Below, one piece after another: positions 34,420-46,954 of a DNA stretch of 64,000 bases; the stretch's first letter is position 1, and each line of letters starts with the position of its first letter. Source of the stretch: Nitrospinota bacterium (GTDB lineage: Bacteria > Nitrospirota > Nitrospiria > Nitrospirales > UBA8639); assembly GCA_022572725.1 (NCBI GenBank), contig JACZVJ010000002.1, forward strand, positions 1 through 64,000, read 5' to 3'. The notes under the pieces are model-generated. The model did not search any database. It saw nothing but the letters and a program-made list of their open reading frames with translations, and was not told the origin of the DNA. Made by a program: the position numbers and the translations under genes.

Positions 34420-34500
34420 TCCTGATAGACTCATTTGCCAGCTTTGGATGATTCTGTGGCTGTAAAACAAGCTAATTCTGTGTCTCCTGAAGGTCCAGAA

Positions 34501-36453
34501 GTGCAGGTCGATTCCCACGGCATTGACATTTCATTTCCAGGAAAGTCCACCCGCCTTCTTCCGGTTGGCACAACCGCCCAGGAAGCCCTGCGTGGGGAAG
34601 GGAAAAGCAAACCCACCGACATCTTTGCCGTCAAGGTTGATGGAATTCCAAAAGACCTTGACACCGAGCTTAAACAAAATGTGACGTTGGAGCCGATAGA
34701 GTTCTCTTCAGCGGATGGAAAAGAAATTTATTGGCACAGCAGTGCACACATCATGGCCCAGGCTGTAAAAGAAATCTTCCCCTCGGCCAATCTCACCATT
34801 GGCCCTCCTATTGAAGAGGGCTTTTATTATGATTTTGCCTTTGAACGGCCCTTTACCCCAGAAGACTTAGAGAAAATCCAGCAGAGGGTCTGTGACATCA
34901 TCAAGGCAGATCTCCCAATTCAACGCCTCGAGATGTCTAAAGATGAAGCCATTCGATTTTTTCAGAAGAGAGGGGAACTTTATAAAGTTGAAATTTTAAA
35001 ACAGATTGAAGACCAGGAGGTATCCCTGTATCGCCAGGGAGATTTTGTTGATCTCTGCCGGGGACCTCATGTTGGTTCGACCGGCAAAGTGAGGGCGTTG
35101 AAACTTCTGTCGAGTGCTGGTGCGTACTGGAGGGGGGATGAACGAAACCCTATGTTGCAGCGAATTTACGGAATCTCCTTCCCCACGCAAAGTGAACTCG
35201 ACGACCATTTGGCTCGCCTGGAAGAGATCAAGCGAAGAGACCATAGAAAGTTGGGCAAGGACCTGGACCTCTTCAGCATTCAAGACGAGATTGGGCCGGG
35301 TTTAATCCTTTGGCATCCCAAAGGTGCCTTGATCAGGTTGTTGATTGAGAATTTTTGGCGCGAACAACACCTTAAACACGGCTACGAATTGGTCTACTCC
35401 CCTCATGTAGCCCGTCTGGATTTATGGAGAACCAGTGGTCACGTAGACTATTACCAGGACAATATGTTTGCCCCGATGACAGTGGAAGCCAGTGAATACC
35501 AATTGAAGCCCATGAATTGTCCCTTTCATATTATGGTGTACAAGTCCCATCTCCGGAGCTACCGTGAATTACCCATTCGCTATGGAGAGTTGGGAACGGT
35601 CTACCGATATGAACGGTCAGGGGTTCTTCATGGGCTTATGAGGGTTCGCGGGTTTACCCAAGATGATGCCCATATTTTCTGCCGACCGGACCAGATTGAG
35701 TCAGAAGTCCGTCAGGTATTGCACTTTACCATTTTTGTGCTTCGGCGGTTTGGATTTTCAGAGTTCGAACTCTATCTTTCCACCAGGCCACCCAAGGCGG
35801 TTGGCGCTCAGGAGAAATGGGATCAAGCCACTCAGGCCTTGGCGGCGGCCCTTAAGGGGGGAGGATTTTCCTACAAGGTCGATCCGGGGGAAGGTGTTTT
35901 TTATGGACCCAAAATTGACCTGAAGATCAAAGACGCCTTGGGCCGTGCCTGGCAATGCTCCACCATCCAGATCGATTTTAATAATCCCGAGCGGTTTGGG
36001 TTGACTTATATTGGAGATGATGGGAAAGCGCATCAGCCCATCATGATTCACCGGGCTTTATTGGGCTCCATTGAGCGGTTCTTCGGAATTTTGATCGAGC
36101 ACTTTGCCGGAGCCTTCCCTACCTGGCTTGCCCCCGTTCAGGTTAAAGTTCTCCCCATTACTGACCAGCAAGTTCCTTATGGAAGGCAAGTGGTGGAGCA
36201 GTTTCGGACGGCTGGCTTTCGAGCGGAGATTGACTTACGGAATGAAAAGGTGGGGCTCAAGATCCGAGAAGCTGAAAAGGCTAAGGTGCCCTTTATGCTC
36301 GTTGTTGGAGAAAGGGAAAAAGAGGGAGAAATGGTTTCGGTACGAAAGCGGGGTGGGACGAACCTCGGAGCTTTAAAGATACATGAGGTACTGGATCTCA
36401 TTCGAAGTGATATGCCAGTGGAGGAACTGACCAGTTCATCTCTTGAGGAATGA
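34501..36453 (+). CDS. thrS: Threonyl-tRNA synthetase
   Basis: Class II synthetase with an N-terminal TGS domain (about residues 2-60), an editing domain with HSSAHIMAQAVKEIFP, and a catalytic core containing the zinc-binding cysteine in MNCPFHIMVYKS. Motif 2 is in RYGELGTVYRYERSG, and motif 3 is MIHRALLGSIERF. The GTG at 34501 has GAAGG upstream and gives 650 residues beginning at the TGS domain. A TTG at 34435, 16 bases after the tRNA, would add 22 residues without a ribosome site. The stop overlaps the infC start (ATGA). Confidence 0.95.
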   Translation: MQVDSHGIDISFPGKSTRLLPVGTTAQEALRGEGKSKPTDIFAVKVDGIPKDLDTELKQNVTLEPIEFSSADGKEIYWHSSAHIMAQAVKEIFPSANLTIGPPIEEGFYYDFAFERPFTPEDLEKIQQRVCDIIKADLPIQRLEMSKDEAIRFFQKRGELYKVEILKQIEDQEVSLYRQGDFVDLCRGPHVGSTGKVRALKLLSSAGAYWRGDERNPMLQRIYGISFPTQSELDDHLARLEEIKRRDHRKLGKDLDLFSIQDEIGPGLILWHPKGALIRLLIENFWREQHLKHGYELVYSPHVARLDLWRTSGHVDYYQDNMFAPMTVEASEYQLKPMNCPFHIMVYKSHLRSYRELPIRYGELGTVYRYERSGVLHGLMRVRGFTQDDAHIFCRPDQIESEVRQVLHFTIFVLRRFGFSEFELYLSTRPPKAVGAQEKWDQATQALAAALKGGGFSYKVDPGEGVFYGPKIDLKIKDALGRAWQCSTIQIDFNNPERFGLTYIGDDGKAHQPIMIHRALLGSIERFFGILIEHFAGAFPTWLAPVQVKVLPITDQQVPYGRQVVEQFRTAGFRAEIDLRNEKVGLKIREAEKAKVPFMLVVGEREKEGEMVSVRKRGGTNLGALKIHEVLDLIRSDMPVEELTSSSLEE

Positions 36454-36971
36454 GCCGACCTGTTAGCGGAAAACAGCGCGTCAATCATTTGATTCGGGCC
36501 CCTGAAGTTCGGGTCATCGGTCCTGACGGGGAGCAGTTGGGTATTCTGAAAACACCTGATGCCCTTCGGCAGGCCAAGGATTTGGGCTACGATCTGGTGG
36601 AGGTGGCTCCAAATTCCGACCCACCTGTCTGCCGGATCATGGATCATGGAAAGTTTAAGTATGAGCAGAGTAAAAAGGAGCATAAGAGCCGGCAACACCA
36701 AAAGTCCACGCAGGTTAAGGAAATTAAGTTCAGGCCCAGAACCGACACGCATGACCTGGAAACCAAGGTCAGGCAAATTCGTGGGTTTCTGGCCGACGGG
36801 AATAAGACAAAGATCATCGTCATGTTTCGAGGTCGGGAAATGGCGAACCAGGAACTTGGGCGACAGGCCATGAGAAAAGTCATGGAAAATTTAGTGGAAG
36901 CAGGGACGATTGAAACCCAACCTCGAATGGAAGGGCGAAATCTGTTTATGGTTGTGGCGCCCAAGAGTTAA
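36450..36971 (+). CDS. infC: Translation initiation factor IF-3
   Basis: Binds the 30S subunit and checks start codons. The N-domain has NHLIRAPEVRVIGPDGEQLGI, the linker is lysine-rich, and the C-domain has VKEIKFRPRTDTHDLETKVRQ. The 173-residue length is usual. The start is ATG, not the rare AUU used for autoregulation in enteric bacteria, and it overlaps the thrS stop by 4 bases. rpmI and rplT follow. Confidence 0.97.
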   Translation: MSRPVSGKQRVNHLIRAPEVRVIGPDGEQLGILKTPDALRQAKDLGYDLVEVAPNSDPPVCRIMDHGKFKYEQSKKEHKSRQHQKSTQVKEIKFRPRTDTHDLETKVRQIRGFLADGNKTKIIVMFRGREMANQELGRQAMRKVMENLVEAGTIETQPRMEGRNLFMVVAPKS

Positions 36972-36983
36972 AGGGGTACAATG

Positions 36984-37187
36984 ATGGCTCGACTGAAGCT
37001 GAAAAATCACGCAGGAGCCAGCAAACGGTTCAGGCGAACTGGCACAGGGAAATTGATGCGACGAAAGGCTGGGTTGAGGCATATTCTTACCAGCAAGAAT
37101 GCCAAACGGAAAAGCCGGCTCAATGATACGGTTCTGATTTCTAAGGCTGATCGTTCTGCAGTCAAACGATTGCTCCCTTATTCCTAA
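36984..37187 (+). CDS. rpmI: 50S ribosomal protein L35
   Basis: A basic 67-residue protein with KNHAGASKRFRRTGTGKLMRRKAG near the N-terminus, which matches L35. Two ATGs are adjacent (36981 and 36984); the second has AGGGG at better spacing. It sits between infC and rplT, as in most bacteria. Confidence 0.95.
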   Translation: MARLKLKNHAGASKRFRRTGTGKLMRRKAGLRHILTSKNAKRKSRLNDTVLISKADRSAVKRLLPYS

Positions 37188-37219
37188 CCACCACTTTAAT
37201 TAGACCAAGGAGAAAGCAC

Positions 37220-37573
37220 ATGCCTCGGGTAAAAGGCGGGCCGCAGACTCGGCGGCGTAGGAAAAAAAGGCTCAAGCTTGCAAAGGGTCAGTATGGAGCG
37301 AAAGGGAAGTTATTTCGCACTGCAACGGAGTCGGTCGATAAGGGTGGGGTCTATGCGTACATTGGTCGCAAGCGCAGGAAGCGCGATTTTCGCCGTTTGT
37401 GGGTGACCCGTATCAGCGCGGCCGTTCGCTCGTACGGTCTCACCTACAGCCGGTTTATGAATGCTCTCAAGAATGTCAACGTGGTGTTGAATCGGAAGGT
37501 CCTGTCGGATATGGCCATTCGGGACGTCGACGGATTTAAAAAGCTAGCCGATCTGGCCAAAGCTACCACCTAA
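37220..37573 (+). CDS. rplT: 50S ribosomal protein L20
   Basis: A basic 117-residue protein needed early in 50S assembly. The signature is MPRVKGGPQTRRRRKKRLKL followed by FRTATESV and YIGRKRRKRDFRRLW. A clear AAGGAG precedes the ATG. It is the last gene of the plus-strand run; pheT approaches from the other side, with stops 33 bases apart. Confidence 0.97.
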   Translation: MPRVKGGPQTRRRRKKRLKLAKGQYGAKGKLFRTATESVDKGGVYAYIGRKRRKRDFRRLWVTRISAAVRSYGLTYSRFMNALKNVNVVLNRKVLSDMAIRDVDGFKKLADLAKATT

Positions 37574-37606: not shown

Positions 37607-39307
37607 TCACCCTCCTTCACTCAAGGGCTCAACCTCAAGTTCGAACAAGGCGACAGGCATAGTAATCTGCCAGGCTTCCAGGACTTCTGGATGGAGTTCA
37701 CCAATGAGTCCGATTGGCTGGCCTTCGCAGATGATCTTCCCCACCCGTCCCTCCAAGAACGATCCATGGCTGGTTGGCTCCAATGTATAAGTCCGAACCA
37801 AGTGATACATCAACTGGTCCAAGGAGGTGTGTACTTCGGAAAAACTTGACGTGGGGTGGGCAATGAGGGCTCCGAGCTTCGTGAGAGTACGCGAGCCCAA
37901 CTCCTGACCGAGGTCTGGGACTGCAACCTCCCCGAGTTCGAAAAGGCGATGAGGGTAGAAGGTGCGAGGAGAGGCCGTTTCTACTCGCAGAAGGGATGGG
38001 ATCATCCAAGATCGCAGGCAGGAAAAATTCTGGGACATCACGTTATCAATCTCGACAAATTGTCCGGGGTCCCCGATTCTAAGACGCATCCGATCGACCA
38101 GATCTTCCGGAGACATCAGGATATTGGAAATAATCTCCTGATACCCCAATCCCACCATGTGGTCTCGGATATGGTCGGAGATTGTCTCGATGGGTGAAAG
38201 GGCCCCCACAGTAAATTGGGCAGGCATCAAAGGGGTAAAGGACTCATACCCTCGGCTAATGGCGACGTCTTCCGCGACGTCCACCGCATGCATGAAATCA
38301 TTCCGGTAACAAGGAAGTCTTAGGGCCAATTTGCGCTGGCTGGCCTTCACTTCATACCCATAACTCGTCAAAGCTTGTTTTATCGCTTCGGTTCCTAATG
38401 GTAGCCCTAAGGCTGATTCGATTGCATGAACGGAAATTCGCTGGACTTGGGTGAATTCACAGGGAGTCCGAACGGTTCTTCCAAATTCCGTGGCGTAAGG
38501 GTAGGCCACCTCGATGGCTTCAATGGAAGCTCCCCGGTCGGCGAGGTTGGCAGCCAAAATATTGAGGGTAAGGAGGACCATCCGGAGATCGGTCCCAGTA
38601 ACTTCTATCAACAATTCCGCATCGCCTGGGCGAACCTCGCCAATTTCCTGGCTGTTGATGATGGGAGGAAAAGAAAGGACCTGCCCTTCCTTGTCCCAAA
38701 GCAGAGGCAGTGAATCATGCCCGGCAAGAATCGATCCAAATTCCATTCCCTTCGGATGGATCGCAAGGATATCCTGCAAGGTCAGTTTTTCAGAAAACCC
38801 GAGAGGAACAAAACGGGCTTCTTGGGGCTTGACAAGCCCGTAGGTAACGGGAAATTGAATCGGATTCAGGCGATAGAGACCGATGGACACCGAACGACGT
38901 TTGTGCCCGTAAATGTCCGCCAGTTTCTCTTGCGCCTGAATAAGTTGGGTTAACCCGTCCTCGGTCATCCTATAGCTTACGGCGGTACAGGCAGCCACAA
39001 AGGGTCGGACGTTTTCCATCCCCGCTGCCACCATAATCCGGCGCTTGGGGCGAGATTTGGTTCGGAGGAATGGGTACTGAACTGGACACCCCTCAAGAGC
39101 TGAGCGGATTTGCCGGGTAATGCCTTCGACCGACCAGAGATCAGGACGATTGCTGTCCTGTAGTTCAATTCGAAGCTCTCCAGAGGTCGGGGTGTAATCC
39201 TTTAACTCCCCCTTGACCAGGGGCAACCGCGCTTCGATTTCTTCAACCGTCACGGCTCGGCCGAGGAGGCGCTCAAAATCCTGGTGGTAAATAGAAATGG
39301 TGGGCAT
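37607..39307 (-). CDS. pheT: Phenylalanyl-tRNA synthetase beta subunit, archaeal/eukaryotic type
   Basis: This 566-residue beta subunit is far shorter than the roughly 800 residues of bacterial PheT. It lacks the N-terminal EMAP-like tRNA-binding domain and the C-terminal anticodon-binding domain. Its N-terminus (MPTISIYHQDFERLLGR, then SNRPDLWSVEGITRQIR) matches archaeal and eukaryotic PheT, as does the C-terminal LIGELHPEVLEAW. It is the partner of the long PheS encoded 45 bases upstream. Bacterial pheST normally follows rplT on the same strand; here the archaeal-type pair lies at that place in opposite orientation. Replacement by lateral transfer is the likely explanation. Confidence 0.93.
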   Translation of the reverse strand: MPTISIYHQDFERLLGRAVTVEEIEARLPLVKGELKDYTPTSGELRIELQDSNRPDLWSVEGITRQIRSALEGCPVQYPFLRTKSRPKRRIMVAAGMENVRPFVAACTAVSYRMTEDGLTQLIQAQEKLADIYGHKRRSVSIGLYRLNPIQFPVTYGLVKPQEARFVPLGFSEKLTLQDILAIHPKGMEFGSILAGHDSLPLLWDKEGQVLSFPPIINSQEIGEVRPGDAELLIEVTGTDLRMVLLTLNILAANLADRGASIEAIEVAYPYATEFGRTVRTPCEFTQVQRISVHAIESALGLPLGTEAIKQALTSYGYEVKASQRKLALRLPCYRNDFMHAVDVAEDVAISRGYESFTPLMPAQFTVGALSPIETISDHIRDHMVGLGYQEIISNILMSPEDLVDRMRLRIGDPGQFVEIDNVMSQNFSCLRSWMIPSLLRVETASPRTFYPHRLFELGEVAVPDLGQELGSRTLTKLGALIAHPTSSFSEVHTSLDQLMYHLVRTYTLEPTSHGSFLEGRVGKIICEGQPIGLIGELHPEVLEAWQITMPVALFELEVEPLSEGG

Positions 39308-39352
39308 GATTGTGGTGAATGCGGTTCTGAGGCCGACGAGGGTTTTCCCATT

Positions 39353-40912
39353 TCATATGAAGCGGCTTCGCATGGTTCGAACCTTTTCCAGGTCGCAGGA
39401 AAATAGGTCTCGAATATCATGGAGACCTAACGCCACCATGGCCATTCGATCCAGCCCTAGCCCCCAGGCAATCACGGGAACCGTGACACCCAGGGGGTGA
39501 GTCACTTCAGGGCGGAACAGTCCAGCGCCCCCAAGCTCCATCCACCCTAACTGTGGGTGGCGAACATGAAGCTCGACCGAGGGTTCCGTAAACGGAAAAT
39601 ACGCGGGCAAGAACCGACTTTCCTGAGCCTGGGCCATTTCTTTAGCGAAAAGCGTGAGGAGACCCAACAGCGTGCGAAAGTTAATGTCTTCGCCTAAGAC
39701 AATGCCCTCCACCTGGAAAAAGTCCGTGGCATGGGTGGCATCGACTTGGTCATACCGGAAACACCGGGCAATGGAAAAATATTTCCCGGGAATAGCTGGG
39801 TTCGCCGCGAGCGTCCGCGCCGAAACGGCCGTTCCCTGGCTTCGTAAAACAAGCCGGCAGGCGCGTTGCCGGTCATAGCGATATCTCCACCCGGTCGACC
39901 CGGTGGACCCACCATTCTCATGGGCGGCGGCAACTTTGGAGAGAAACGGTTCCGGAATTTTGTCGGCATGAGTTGGCCGTTTCACGAAGTAGACGTCATG
40001 AATGGCCCGCGCAGGATGGAATTGCGGCATAAAAAGGGCGTCCATATCCCAAAATTCCGTTTCCACCAACGGCCCCCGCATTTCCTGGAATCCCATACTG
40101 ACAAGCTTTCCTTTGACGGAATCCAAAAATTCACGGTAGGGGTGTCGGCGCCCGAACGCGACCCTTGGTGGACGAAGGTTAATGGTGTACCTTCTGAACC
40201 GTTTATTTCGCCAGGACCCATCTTTCAACATTTCCGGGGTAAGCTGGGAAACTTCCTCTAAAGCCCCGGGACGACAGAGTTTGGCGACGGTGTGGCCCTC
40301 AGGTGTGAGGAGGTAGACTCGTTCAATCCGTTCCTCGATCCGAAACGGTTCCCGGGTGTTCCCGCGTTTCACGGAATAGTGGCGGATCGTGGTTTGAAGG
40401 GAGGAAGGAAACGTGTGAAGACCTTTCGGGCCTTCGTGTAATTGGATGAGAAGTGACCGGAGGGCCTTTTCGGTCGGGCTCTCCACACCAGTGGCTTCGA
40501 CGACCCCGCCTGATACCAAGCGTATGGCCCCTTCTTTTTTCAACAGGCCGATGGCTCGGCTTAACTCGGTTGGCTGGAATTCCTCTTTTGATTGGAGGTC
40601 CTTGACGGTCAACCGACGATCCTCCTGGTGGGCACTAGAAAGAGCACCTAAAATCCAGTCAAGTGGAGAGGCCACCACGTGATACCGCTGACCCACATCC
40701 GTGAGACTGACCAATGGCGTAACGATTTCTGACTCCATTCGAAGAAGACCCTTGGCCTGGAGCCATCCCAGGGCCATGCTGACTTGGGATTGTTCAAGGT
40801 GGCTCATTTCAACCAGTTGGGTATCCTTGACTGGCCCGCTCGTTTGATCAAATGCAGCCAGAATATTGACCTCGAGGGGGTGCAAACTCTCATGGATGGT
40901 CATGGTGTCCAT
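39353..40912 (-). CDS. pheS: Phenylalanyl-tRNA synthetase alpha subunit, archaeal/eukaryotic type
   Basis: This 519-residue catalytic subunit is much longer than bacterial PheS (about 340). The N-terminal 250 residues are a series of winged-helix-like DNA/RNA-binding folds (LHPLEVNILAAF; VEMSHLEQSQVSMALGWLQAKGLL), as in archaeal and eukaryotic PheS. The C-terminal class II core has HPYREFLDSVKGKLVSMGFQEM, ARCFRYDQVDATHATDFFQVEG (motif 2) and WGLGLDRMAM (motif 3). The gene follows rpe after 8 bases and is co-transcribed with pheT. Confidence 0.93.
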   Translation of the reverse strand: MDTMTIHESLHPLEVNILAAFDQTSGPVKDTQLVEMSHLEQSQVSMALGWLQAKGLLRMESEIVTPLVSLTDVGQRYHVVASPLDWILGALSSAHQEDRRLTVKDLQSKEEFQPTELSRAIGLLKKEGAIRLVSGGVVEATGVESPTEKALRSLLIQLHEGPKGLHTFPSSLQTTIRHYSVKRGNTREPFRIEERIERVYLLTPEGHTVAKLCRPGALEEVSQLTPEMLKDGSWRNKRFRRYTINLRPPRVAFGRRHPYREFLDSVKGKLVSMGFQEMRGPLVETEFWDMDALFMPQFHPARAIHDVYFVKRPTHADKIPEPFLSKVAAAHENGGSTGSTGWRYRYDRQRACRLVLRSQGTAVSARTLAANPAIPGKYFSIARCFRYDQVDATHATDFFQVEGIVLGEDINFRTLLGLLTLFAKEMAQAQESRFLPAYFPFTEPSVELHVRHPQLGWMELGGAGLFRPEVTHPLGVTVPVIAWGLGLDRMAMVALGLHDIRDLFSCDLEKVRTMRSRFI

Positions 40913-40920
40913 ACGATTGC

Positions 40921-41598
40921 CTAATGAAGGACCTTGTGTGCCTCGGACCGAAAGGCCCTAATCGTGGCTGCATAATCCGAGCTGTCAAAAATCGCCGACC
41001 CTGCAACCAAGATCCCCGCCCCGGCCTTGATAACCTCGGCCGCATTCTCAACCTTCACGCCGCCATCCACCTCGAGGACAGCGTGACTTTTGGTGCGGGC
41101 AATCAACTGGCGTGCCCGGACAATTTTATCGAGACTGGAAGGAATGAAACTCTGCCCGCCGAATCCAGGATTGACCGACATGATCAACAGGAGGTCTACA
41201 ACCGAGATGACCTCTTCAAGGGTCGATAAGGGGGTTGAAGGATTCAACGTCACCCCGGCTTTAACCCCATGCTCCTTGATGGACTGAATCGTTCGATGCA
41301 AATGCGGGCATGTTTCGACATGGACTGTCAGGTAATTGGCCCCAGCCTGGGCGAATTCGGGAATAAATGAATCGGGGTGTGTGATCATCAAATGAACATC
41401 CAAGGGAAGGGCCGTCACTTTCCGTAAGGCCTCGACGATTGGGGGGCCGACCGTGAGATTGGGGACAAAGTGGCCATCCATGACGTCAATGTGGATGATA
41501 TCTGCGCCAGCAGCTTCGACACGTGAGACTTCCTCAGCCAGGCGACCAAAATCGGCTGAGAGAATCGAAGGAGCAATTTGGACTGGTGGTCCCGTCAT
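40921..41598 (-). CDS. rpe: Ribulose-phosphate 3-epimerase
   Basis: Interconverts ribulose 5-phosphate and xylulose 5-phosphate in the Calvin and pentose phosphate pathways. The TIM barrel shows [23 protein letters not shown] (metal-binding His and Asp), [10 protein letters not shown] and EVDGGV. The start is the ATG at 41598, which overlaps the rsmB stop (ATGA) and gives 225 residues; the upstream reading to 41757 lies inside rsmB. Confidence 0.96.
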
Positions 41599-43004
41599 AA
41601 GGTTTCTTCCTTTCGGAGACGAGCGGCGAAAAACCCGTCCATGGGGTATGGCGTAGCCATTGTCAGCAGGTCTCCGTCTTGATTCACGAGAAACCGACCT
41701 AGGGGAGGGAGCCAGGGCGTCGAGGCTTCGTGGTAGAACTCTGGATGTGCCCGGCAAAAGCGGGAGATCACCTGGATACTTTCTTCGGGCTCCGTCGAGC
41801 AGGCACTATAGACTAACACTCCACCTGGTCTCAAGAGGCGCCACACATGTTCGAGGATCTGGTTTTGGACCATGCTGTGACCTTCAAGCCGGTCTGGCCC
41901 CTTGTGCCATTTGGCTTCAGGGTGGCGGTTCAACACTCCCATGCCGGAACAGGGTGCGTCCACCAAGATTCGATCGAAACTCTCTTCAGTGAGAGATCCA
42001 TGCTCTTTGGCGTCACTCCAGTTCTCCCCCACGCTTGCGAGAATAGGAGTGAGAATGCAGACTCCGAGTCGACGACAGTTTTCTTCAAGAACCTTCAAAC
42101 GCTTTGGGTTCTTGTCGATGGCGATAATTTCACCTTGGTTTTTCATGAGGGCGGCAATGTGGGTGGCCTTACCCCCTGGAGCGGCGCACGCATCGAGGAC
42201 TCGGTGACCCGGCTTCACATCTAACAGGAGTGGAACCAACTGAGCCGCTTCGTCTTCCACATAACACCAACCCTCTTGAAGGGGCTGAAGGTTGCTGAGA
42301 GAGCCGCATTTTTCAAGGACCATCCCCACAGGACTGACTGTGGTCCGTCTGACATGGTGGCCTTCCTGAATGAGCCTAGCTTCAAGAGCATTCGGTGAAC
42401 ACCGTAAGGTGTTGGTGCGGAGCGTTAAAGGGGGAATGGTGGCCGCGTGACGACAAGCACGCTGTGCCCCTTCCAATCCGAATCGGCTGATCCACCTCTC
42501 CGTCAACCAAGGGGGACAGGAATAGCGGATTGACAACGCTGTGACGGGATCCTCAGAGATCTCTGGCCAGGGCGGGACCGGGAGTCGGCAAAGGCTGCGA
42601 AGGACCCCGTTGACAAATCCGGCCCAATTTCGACCCGGCGTTGTCTTCACCAGTTTTACGGATTCATTGACGGCAGCCGAATGGGGGATTTTATCAAGAT
42701 AGCGGATTTGGTAGGCTCCCAATCGAAGAGCCTGCGCCACTGAAGCTGGGAGTCGGTGAATCGGGCGATCTGCCACCAGGTTGATATGCCAATCGAGGGT
42801 CCCCCGATGGCGCAGCACGCCATAAACCAAATCGAATGCCAGGGAAAGATCCTGCTTGTGCAAGTGAATACCCCTGGTGAAACGGTCAAAGGCTTCGTCC
42901 GGAAAGACGTCATACCGCTCGATCTTCCGCAAAATCTCACAAGCTGCCGTTCTCGCGTTCCAATTTCTCCCTGGGGCCTTGGATGAACTCGATGGGCTGG
43001 ACAT
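41595..43004 (-). CDS. rsmB: 16S rRNA m5C967 methyltransferase RsmB (Sun)
   Basis: The 469-residue enzyme has an N-terminal NusB-like RNA-binding domain (about residues 15-150, [16 protein letters not shown]) and a C-terminal SAM-dependent domain with [15 protein letters not shown]. The two catalytic-region cysteines are in [15 protein letters not shown] and [11 protein letters not shown]. It heads the minus-strand unit rsmB-rpe-pheS-pheT and overlaps rpe by 4 bases. Confidence 0.96.
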
Positions 43005-45871: not shown

Positions 45872-46954
45872 ATGAGTGATCGCAAGAAAATCGAGGATTG
45901 CCGGCAAGAGATTGACCGGCTGGATAATGAAATCCTTCGTCTGCTGAATGAGCGCTCGAAGCATGTCATTGAAATCGGGCGCCTGAAGAAGGAGTTAGAT
46001 GCCAACGCGCCCCTCCACACCTCCGGTCGGGAGTCGGCCATTGTGGAACGCCTCATGCGCCAAAATTCAGGACCCTTCCCCAATGAGGCCATTCGACCCG
46101 TATACCGGGAAATTATGTCGGCCTCTCTTTCCTTAGAAGGGACTCAAACGGTGGCCTACCTTGGTCCCTCTGCCACGTTTACCCACCTGGCCGCTCTCGG
46201 GAAATTTGGTCAATCGGCTCAATATCATCCAGTCAACGGAATTAAAGAGGTCTTTGATGAAGTCGAGCGGGGACGAGCCACTTTTGGGGTCGTGCCTATC
46301 GAGAATTCAACCGAAGGCGTGGTCAACTATACGCTCGATATGTTCATTGATTCGAATCTCCTCATCTACGGTGAGGTCCTGCAAGAGGTTTCCCATCATC
46401 TCATGTCAAAGGCGGACGGCCTTGAGGCGATACAAACTGTCTACTCTCACCCACATGCTATCGCGCAATGCCGCAATTGGCTGGAAACCAACCTTCCCAA
46501 CGTCTTGATCGCTGAGACTCCCAGCACCTCCAGCGCCGCCGAAAAGTGCGCAGACGAACCGACCGCCGCGGCCATCGCCTCTGACCTCGCTGCTTCGCTG
46601 TATGGATTGCAAATTCTCAAATCCCGGATTGAGGATAACATCAACAATTTCACCCGATTCCTCATCCTTTCCCGCAACCCGTCTGAGCGAACCGGGAAAG
46701 ACAAAACCTCTATCATGTTGTCCATCAAAGATAAGGCCGGCGCGTTGTACGACCTTCTTCGCCCCTTCGCCTCGAATGGCATCAATATGACCAAAATCGA
46801 GTCCCGTCCTTCTCGCCGGAAAGCGTGGGAGTATTTTTTCTTCGTGGATTTGGAAGGACACACTGAAGAAGACCGAATTCGAAAGACCCTGGAAGAGATT
46901 AAAGGACGCTGCCTGTTCTTGAAAATATTGGGGTCGTACCCTATCGGCACCTGA
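45872..46954 (+). CDS. pheA: Bifunctional chorismate mutase/prephenate dehydratase (P-protein)
   Basis: Converts chorismate to phenylpyruvate. The AroQ-type mutase occupies residues 1-90 (IEDCRQEIDRLDNEILRLLNER). The dehydratase follows (YLGPSATFTHLAA; GVVPIENSTEGVV; the TR motif in NNFTRFLIL), and then the ACT regulatory domain (about 275-355, KDKAGALYDLLRPFASNGINMTKIESRP), which gives phenylalanine feedback control. It is the first of the plus-strand aromatic series. Confidence 0.97.
   Translation: MSDRKKIEDCRQEIDRLDNEILRLLNERSKHVIEIGRLKKELDANAPLHTSGRESAIVERLMRQNSGPFPNEAIRPVYREIMSASLSLEGTQTVAYLGPSATFTHLAALGKFGQSAQYHPVNGIKEVFDEVERGRATFGVVPIENSTEGVVNYTLDMFIDSNLLIYGEVLQEVSHHLMSKADGLEAIQTVYSHPHAIAQCRNWLETNLPNVLIAETPSTSSAAEKCADEPTAAAIASDLAASLYGLQILKSRIEDNINNFTRFLILSRNPSERTGKDKTSIMLSIKDKAGALYDLLRPFASNGINMTKIESRPSRRKAWEYFFFVDLEGHTEEDRIRKTLEEIKGRCLFLKILGSYPIGT

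Follow-up and report, generated by a model that had tools for sequence, protein, structure and literature searches.

The usual bacterial phenylalanyl-tRNA synthetase (PheRS) combines a PheS (alpha) subunit of ~340 aa with a PheT (beta) subunit of ~800 aa that carries the B3_4 and FDX-ACB domains. A different type is found in Spirochaeta, Treponema and Borrelia, where the enzyme is archaeal in character (Andam and Gogarten 2011, PMC3191353), and its presence in spirochaetes has been known since 2000 (Woese et al. 2000, cited in PMC2939571). Among solved structures, those closest by sequence to the pair considered here are PheT of Pyrococcus horikoshii and the human, Plasmodium and other cytosolic enzymes.

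The window analysed, 64,000 nt from a Nitrospirota genome, carries neither the PheS nor the PheT expected of a bacterium; the pair it encodes is an archaeal/eukaryotic-type PheRS alpha and beta. It resembles the spirochaete enzymes in size (spirochaete alpha 513-528, beta 514-573 aa), in standing in place of a bacterial enzyme, in falling into one clade with them in the trees of both subunits and in the affinity of its beta subunit to Pyrococcus, the last agreeing with what was published on spirochaetes (PMC3191353; Woese et al., cited in PMC2939571). It differs in phylum, and in that Nitrospirota have a conserved locus convergent with thrS-infC-rpmI-rplT and switches of PheRS type within the phylum.

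The gene pair and its surroundings

Both genes are on the minus strand. pheT (37607..39307) encodes 566 aa with B1, a B3/4-like editing region, B5 and CLM, and is without B2 and FDX-ACB; pheS (39353..40912) encodes 519 aa, a winged-helix region of ~210 residues preceding a class II catalytic core at residues 242-512. On the same strand, rpe (ribulose-phosphate epimerase, 40921..41598) lies 8 nt upstream of pheS, its reading frame being listed from 41757 with 41598 the likely ATG, and its start is overlapped by the stop codon of rsmB (16S rRNA methyltransferase, 41595..43004). The plus strand from 34435 to 37573 is occupied by thrS (34435..36453, start codon uncertain), infC (36450..36971), rpmI (36981..37187) and rplT (37220..37573), the last convergent with pheT across a gap of 33 bp. 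With only 8 nt between rpe and pheS and 45 nt between pheS and pheT, a single predicted rsmB-rpe-pheS-pheT transcript is plausible; scans of the window for a promoter serving it, and for a terminator between rplT and pheT, gave nothing better than chance. A pheA-like chorismate mutase/prephenate dehydratase gene, for phenylalanine synthesis, is at 45872-46954 on the plus strand, 5 kb from pheS.

PheT scores 476 bits on the archaeal family model TIGR00471 pheT_arch (NCBIfam; cut-off 283), of whose 551 positions it covers 1-548, that is, full length, and 113 bits on TIGR00472 pheT_bact, below the cut-off of 403; PheS scores 560 bits on NF003210/PRK04172 (cut-off 350). With E below 1e-140 for these whole-family matches, chance can be set aside. 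Pfam domains detected in PheT are restricted to B1, B5 and CLM. Neither B2/tRNA-bind nor the C-terminal FDX-ACB (B8) was found in it at E up to 1, and Pfam B3_4 gave no match to it; a bacterial-type Nitrospirota PheT taken as control (L133) yielded 110 bits for FDX-ACB and 236 bits for B3_4. The catalytic motifs are conserved across 41 aligned sequences. The original prediction, of a 519-residue PheS with N-terminal winged-helix folds and a 566-residue PheT lacking the extra bacterial domains, is borne out on the first count by length, coordinates, the PRK04172 match and an AF2 model, and on the second by the absence of B2 and FDX-ACB together with the pheT_arch score.

The AF2 model of PheT (mean pLDDT 91.9) is matched by Foldseek to the P. 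horikoshii beta structure 2cxi at TMt 0.95 and rmsd 1.7, the latter across the 350 N-terminal residues, which take in the editing domain, with 36% identity; 2cxi is archaeal, and as a solved structure is a fragment only. For PheS (mean pLDDT 89.4), whose residues 1-210 are modelled as helices and wing strands, the best match is human cytosolic PheRS alpha (3l4g, 510 columns). The whole-chain TM is low (0.46, rmsd 17; pTM 0.56), probably due to the N-terminal arm being placed differently in the model. The human enzyme matches both subunits over their whole length, shares the N-terminal winged helices of alpha and likewise has a beta without B2 and B8; it differs in that identity is 25-28% and the eukaryotic alpha falls outside the bacterial clade described below.

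The product is predicted to be a class II enzyme, (alpha-beta)2, with archaeal/eukaryotic-cytosolic architecture, that charges tRNA-Phe(GAA). Lacking the C-terminal B8, it cannot read the anticodon in the manner of bacterial B8, and, by analogy with the archaeal/cytosolic family, it is probably the N-terminal winged-helix region of PheS that binds the tRNA instead. The N-terminal half of beta retains the editing-domain fold seen in Pyrococcus.

The only PheRS found in its genome

In the genome from which the window derives (98.96% complete, 221 contigs) the single PF01409 match is the window pheT, and no bacterial pheT exceeds its cut-off; a back-up bacterial PheRS, a candidate that was considered, was not found. 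A second, weak pheT_bact match, confined to model positions 40-123 and in another frame of 707 codons, is most likely a tRNA-bind domain. The search elsewhere in the genome that the original prediction proposed thus leaves the archaeal-type enzyme as the sole one found, and the pair is predicted from sequence to be the cell's only PheRS.

Distribution and gene order in the phylum

Of 396 Nitrospirota genomes scanned for pheT, 159 exceed the bacterial cut-off, all of them outside the class of the present genome. Within that class none is over or near it, the best E values (to ~1e-39) reflecting the shared core; a few class members match only at E ~1e-7, probably because their PheT lies at a contig end and escaped the scan. 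The pheT_arch cut-off is exceeded in all 66 genomes picked as archaeal-type, which comprise the class together with families f14, f15, f18, f21, f22 (which we take to be Leptospirillum) and f39. Archaeal-type PheRS is present in every usable sampled genome of the class and in several other lineages, Leptospirillum included, so the switch of type is old: it is a trait of the whole class and not a local oddity of one genome.

Gene order is also pertinent. In the bacterial-type families, presumably Thermodesulfovibrio-type, thrS-infC-rpmI-rplT-pheS-pheT are on one strand. Their enzyme carries out the same reaction with the same tRNA-Phe beside the same thrS-infC-rpmI-rplT neighbours, but has a PheS of ~340 aa and a PheT of ~690-820 aa with FDX-ACB, and is encoded in a co-directional operon. 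In most loci of the class, in f21 and in Leptospirillum, the pair instead faces the cluster (thrS-infC-rpmI-rplT> <pheT-pheS), and in the class and f21 pheS is then usually followed by rpe(-rsmB). The gap between rplT and pheT widens to 1-5 kb in f21 and some others, and in the majority of loci from Nitrospiria, f14 and f21 rpe adjoins pheS. The f14 loci keep pheT-pheS-rpe-rsmB with thrS not in view; in f18 and a few others neither the thrS cluster nor rpe-rsmB is beside the pair. In f39 the archaeal-type pair is co-directional after rplT, in the native pheST slot of the thrS operon. (Among the bacterial-type enzymes, PheT of Thermodesulfovibrio-type Nitrospirota and f42 is ~690-720 aa and without B2/tRNA-bind [L133:6884-8983; L012-L033], and f16 and f19 have kept ~800 aa. 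Loss of B2 has otherwise been reported from CPR bacteria [PMC5370408].)

The pair does, as predicted, occupy the usual pheST place in inverted orientation and co-directional with rsmB-rpe; the strands agree, and relatives carry pheST there. The comparison with related genomes that had been proposed shows the convergent arrangement to be conserved over the class and in Leptospirillum, which makes it an ancestral feature and not one left behind by something recent. Of the proposed replacement of the native synthetase by a transferred one, the foreign origin stands.

Switches of type within Nitrospirota

An RpoB tree (76 rows, frames picked by homology, spirochaete root) shows at least three changes of PheRS type; its root depends on long branches and a single gene. 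The early branches are all archaeal-type, namely f22, f14, f21, the class of the present genome and f15; f18 and f39, also archaeal-type, lie inside an otherwise bacterial-type part. These two are sisters in both PheS and PheT, and in PheS their nearest relative is f21 (SH-aLRT 91), which suggests, from the sequences, that their pair moved within Nitrospirota. The Leptospirillum RpoB sequences (L560, L561), at ~1,725 aa, have an insertion of ~400 residues after about residue 220 that by eye is not intein-like.

The order of these branches bears on a history in which the phylum began with the archaeal type and a bacterial pheST was taken up afterwards by Thermodesulfovibrio-type lineages. For the window such a history is compatible with the explanation preferred below; it differs on what happened in the phylum. 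The spirochaete-rooted RpoB tree favors it in placing archaeal-type lineages on all early branches and bacterial-type ones within, but that root has the weakness just given, and the bacterial-type PheTs of Nitrospirota families, G154 apart, behave as a native gene should: they form one coherent clade and sit in the usual operon position. It deserves a hearing, though on balance the evidence leans against it. G154 (f29, L138) has a full-length bacterial PheT of 810 aa that is outside the other bacterial-type Nitrospirota PheTs and near some spirochaetes, perhaps another transfer.

Origin of the pair

In the PheT tree (97 rows, LG+C20, rooted on bacterial-type PheT) the archaeal-type bacterial sequences form one clade (UFBoot/SH-aLRT 100/99) of Nitrospirota, Spirochaetota, Fermentibacterota/Aegiribacteria, one WOR-3, one Armatimonadetes and one Planctomycetes MAG. 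It joins Bathyarchaeia, Heimdallarchaeota and P. horikoshii at 100/97, and P. horikoshii alone at 94/77, Thermococcales being represented in the trees by one PDB fragment. The same bacterial clade appears in the PheS tree (88 rows) with 100/100, and the successive branches that place it within archaea have support of 98-100. Both subunits, in the trees that had been proposed as a check, are with archaea and eukaryotes and split from bacterial-type PheRS at 100/100. For PheT, a tree with all archaea and eukaryotes together on one side survives the AU test (p 0.26), and it is chiefly PheS and interior support that speak for a position within archaea. Monophyly of Nitrospirota is weak (68/60 in PheT; one Armatimonadetes MAG inside in PheS, 37/88), and in both trees the window falls in its own family within the phylum.

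Some of the sequences encountered are from single genomes. Planctomycetes UBA4800 and Armatimonadetes AS09scLD_256 (L244 and L251) are single MAGs with archaeal-type PheRS of the bacterial clade. The Thermoplasmata-like PheRS, on a long branch, of the Deltaproteobacteria single-cell genome AH-558-G13 (L204/L276) is likely mislabelled or contaminated, and G435 (L287), of the spirochaete phylum, has a PheT among archaea outside the bacterial clade, also on a long branch, through separate transfer or contamination.

The reading that very probably applies is a single transfer from an archaeon to bacteria followed by spread among bacterial phyla, spirochaetes included, with the pair already in the ancestor of the class; the direction and number of transfers are what we infer from the trees. 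The nearest relatives outside Nitrospirota being spirochaetes, Fermentibacterota and other bacteria, Nitrospirota probably obtained the pair from a bacterium, with the archaeal donor further back. Acquisition straight from an archaeon, separately from spirochaetes, would suit a sequence archaeal in type, and with archaeon-to-spirochaete transfer documented (PMC3191353) a second event is conceivable. However, the joint clade of Nitrospirota, spirochaetes, Fermentibacterota and others contains no sampled archaea at 100/99 and 100/100, and a Nitrospirota PheS profile scores 610-670 on full-length spirochaete and Fermentibacteria sequences versus ~310-470 on archaea, making a direct archaeal donor improbable.

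That a truncated or decayed bacterial PheRS has been taken for an archaeal one, as the shortness of PheT and the lack of a Pfam B3_4 match might suggest, is ruled out for practical purposes by the trees and by matches that span the family models, with the conserved motifs and the fit of the model to the Pyrococcus beta fragment (TM 0.95) pointing the same way. Derivation of the contig from another organism can be dismissed with similar assurance: the assembly is in 221 contigs, but the same locus is found in relatives, single-contig genomes among them, and is more alike the closer the relative, from class through order to family, and the concordant placement of window PheS, window PheT and genome RpoB rules it out.

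Under the preferred course, one ancient archaeon-to-bacteria transfer of pheS-pheT with later spread between bacterial phyla, the class ancestor would already have had thrS-infC-rpmI-rplT > < pheT-pheS-rpe-rsmB and have lost the native bacterial pheST.

The tRNA-Phe sequences

Exchange of PheRS would, on the evidence of the tRNAs, have needed no change in tRNA-Phe identity. tRNA-Phe(GAA) was read in 72 genome/sequence pairs, those of 76 nt being compared by position (36 from archaeal-type and 30 from bacterial-type genomes). An identical 76-nt tRNA-Phe is present in two genomes with bacterial PheRS (G003, G013) and three with the archaeal type (G005, G015, G053), and another is shared by G032 (bacterial) and G203 (archaeal-type, f39). 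The GAA anticodon and A73 are unchanged across both types.

U20 is a determinant for the E. coli enzyme, and G20 for those of Aeropyrum pernix and yeast (PMC9976931). All 30 bacterial-type tRNAs have U20, as do 25 of the 36 archaeal-type ones; the other 11, that of the present genome included, have C20. G20 occurs in none of the 36 archaeal-type Nitrospirota tRNAs, and a shift of tRNA-Phe to archaeal identity, also considered, was in that respect not seen. Since C20 represents few independent events (Nitrospirales, f7), loss of the U20 constraint under archaeal-type PheRS is put forward as a suggestion. The broader proposal is that type is freely exchangeable, unmodified bacterial tRNA-Phe being accepted, with the at least three switches, the f39 swap at the native thrS-operon slot and the subsequent non-maintenance of U20 (C20 in Nitrospirales) all its expressions; the grounds for accepting and for doubting it seem to us about equal.

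Implications

Archaeal-type PheRS in bacteria is a phenomenon of an already known kind, to which Nitrospirota adds a new and large member. The papers found treat it as a peculiarity of some spirochaetes, and searching the literature for archaeal PheRS in Nitrospira turned up no account, which need not mean that none exists. It now marks most early-branching Nitrospirota, including Nitrospira and Leptospirillum, and occurs in further phyla. What is new here is the at least three switches of type within one phylum, the f39 pair in the native slot and identical tRNA-Phe serving both types. The pheS-pheT pair may also serve as a shared derived marker of the internal order of Nitrospirota. With either enzyme found alongside identical tRNA-Phe within one phylum, there is a natural test bed for synthetase swap without tRNA change, and that is the part most worth testing.
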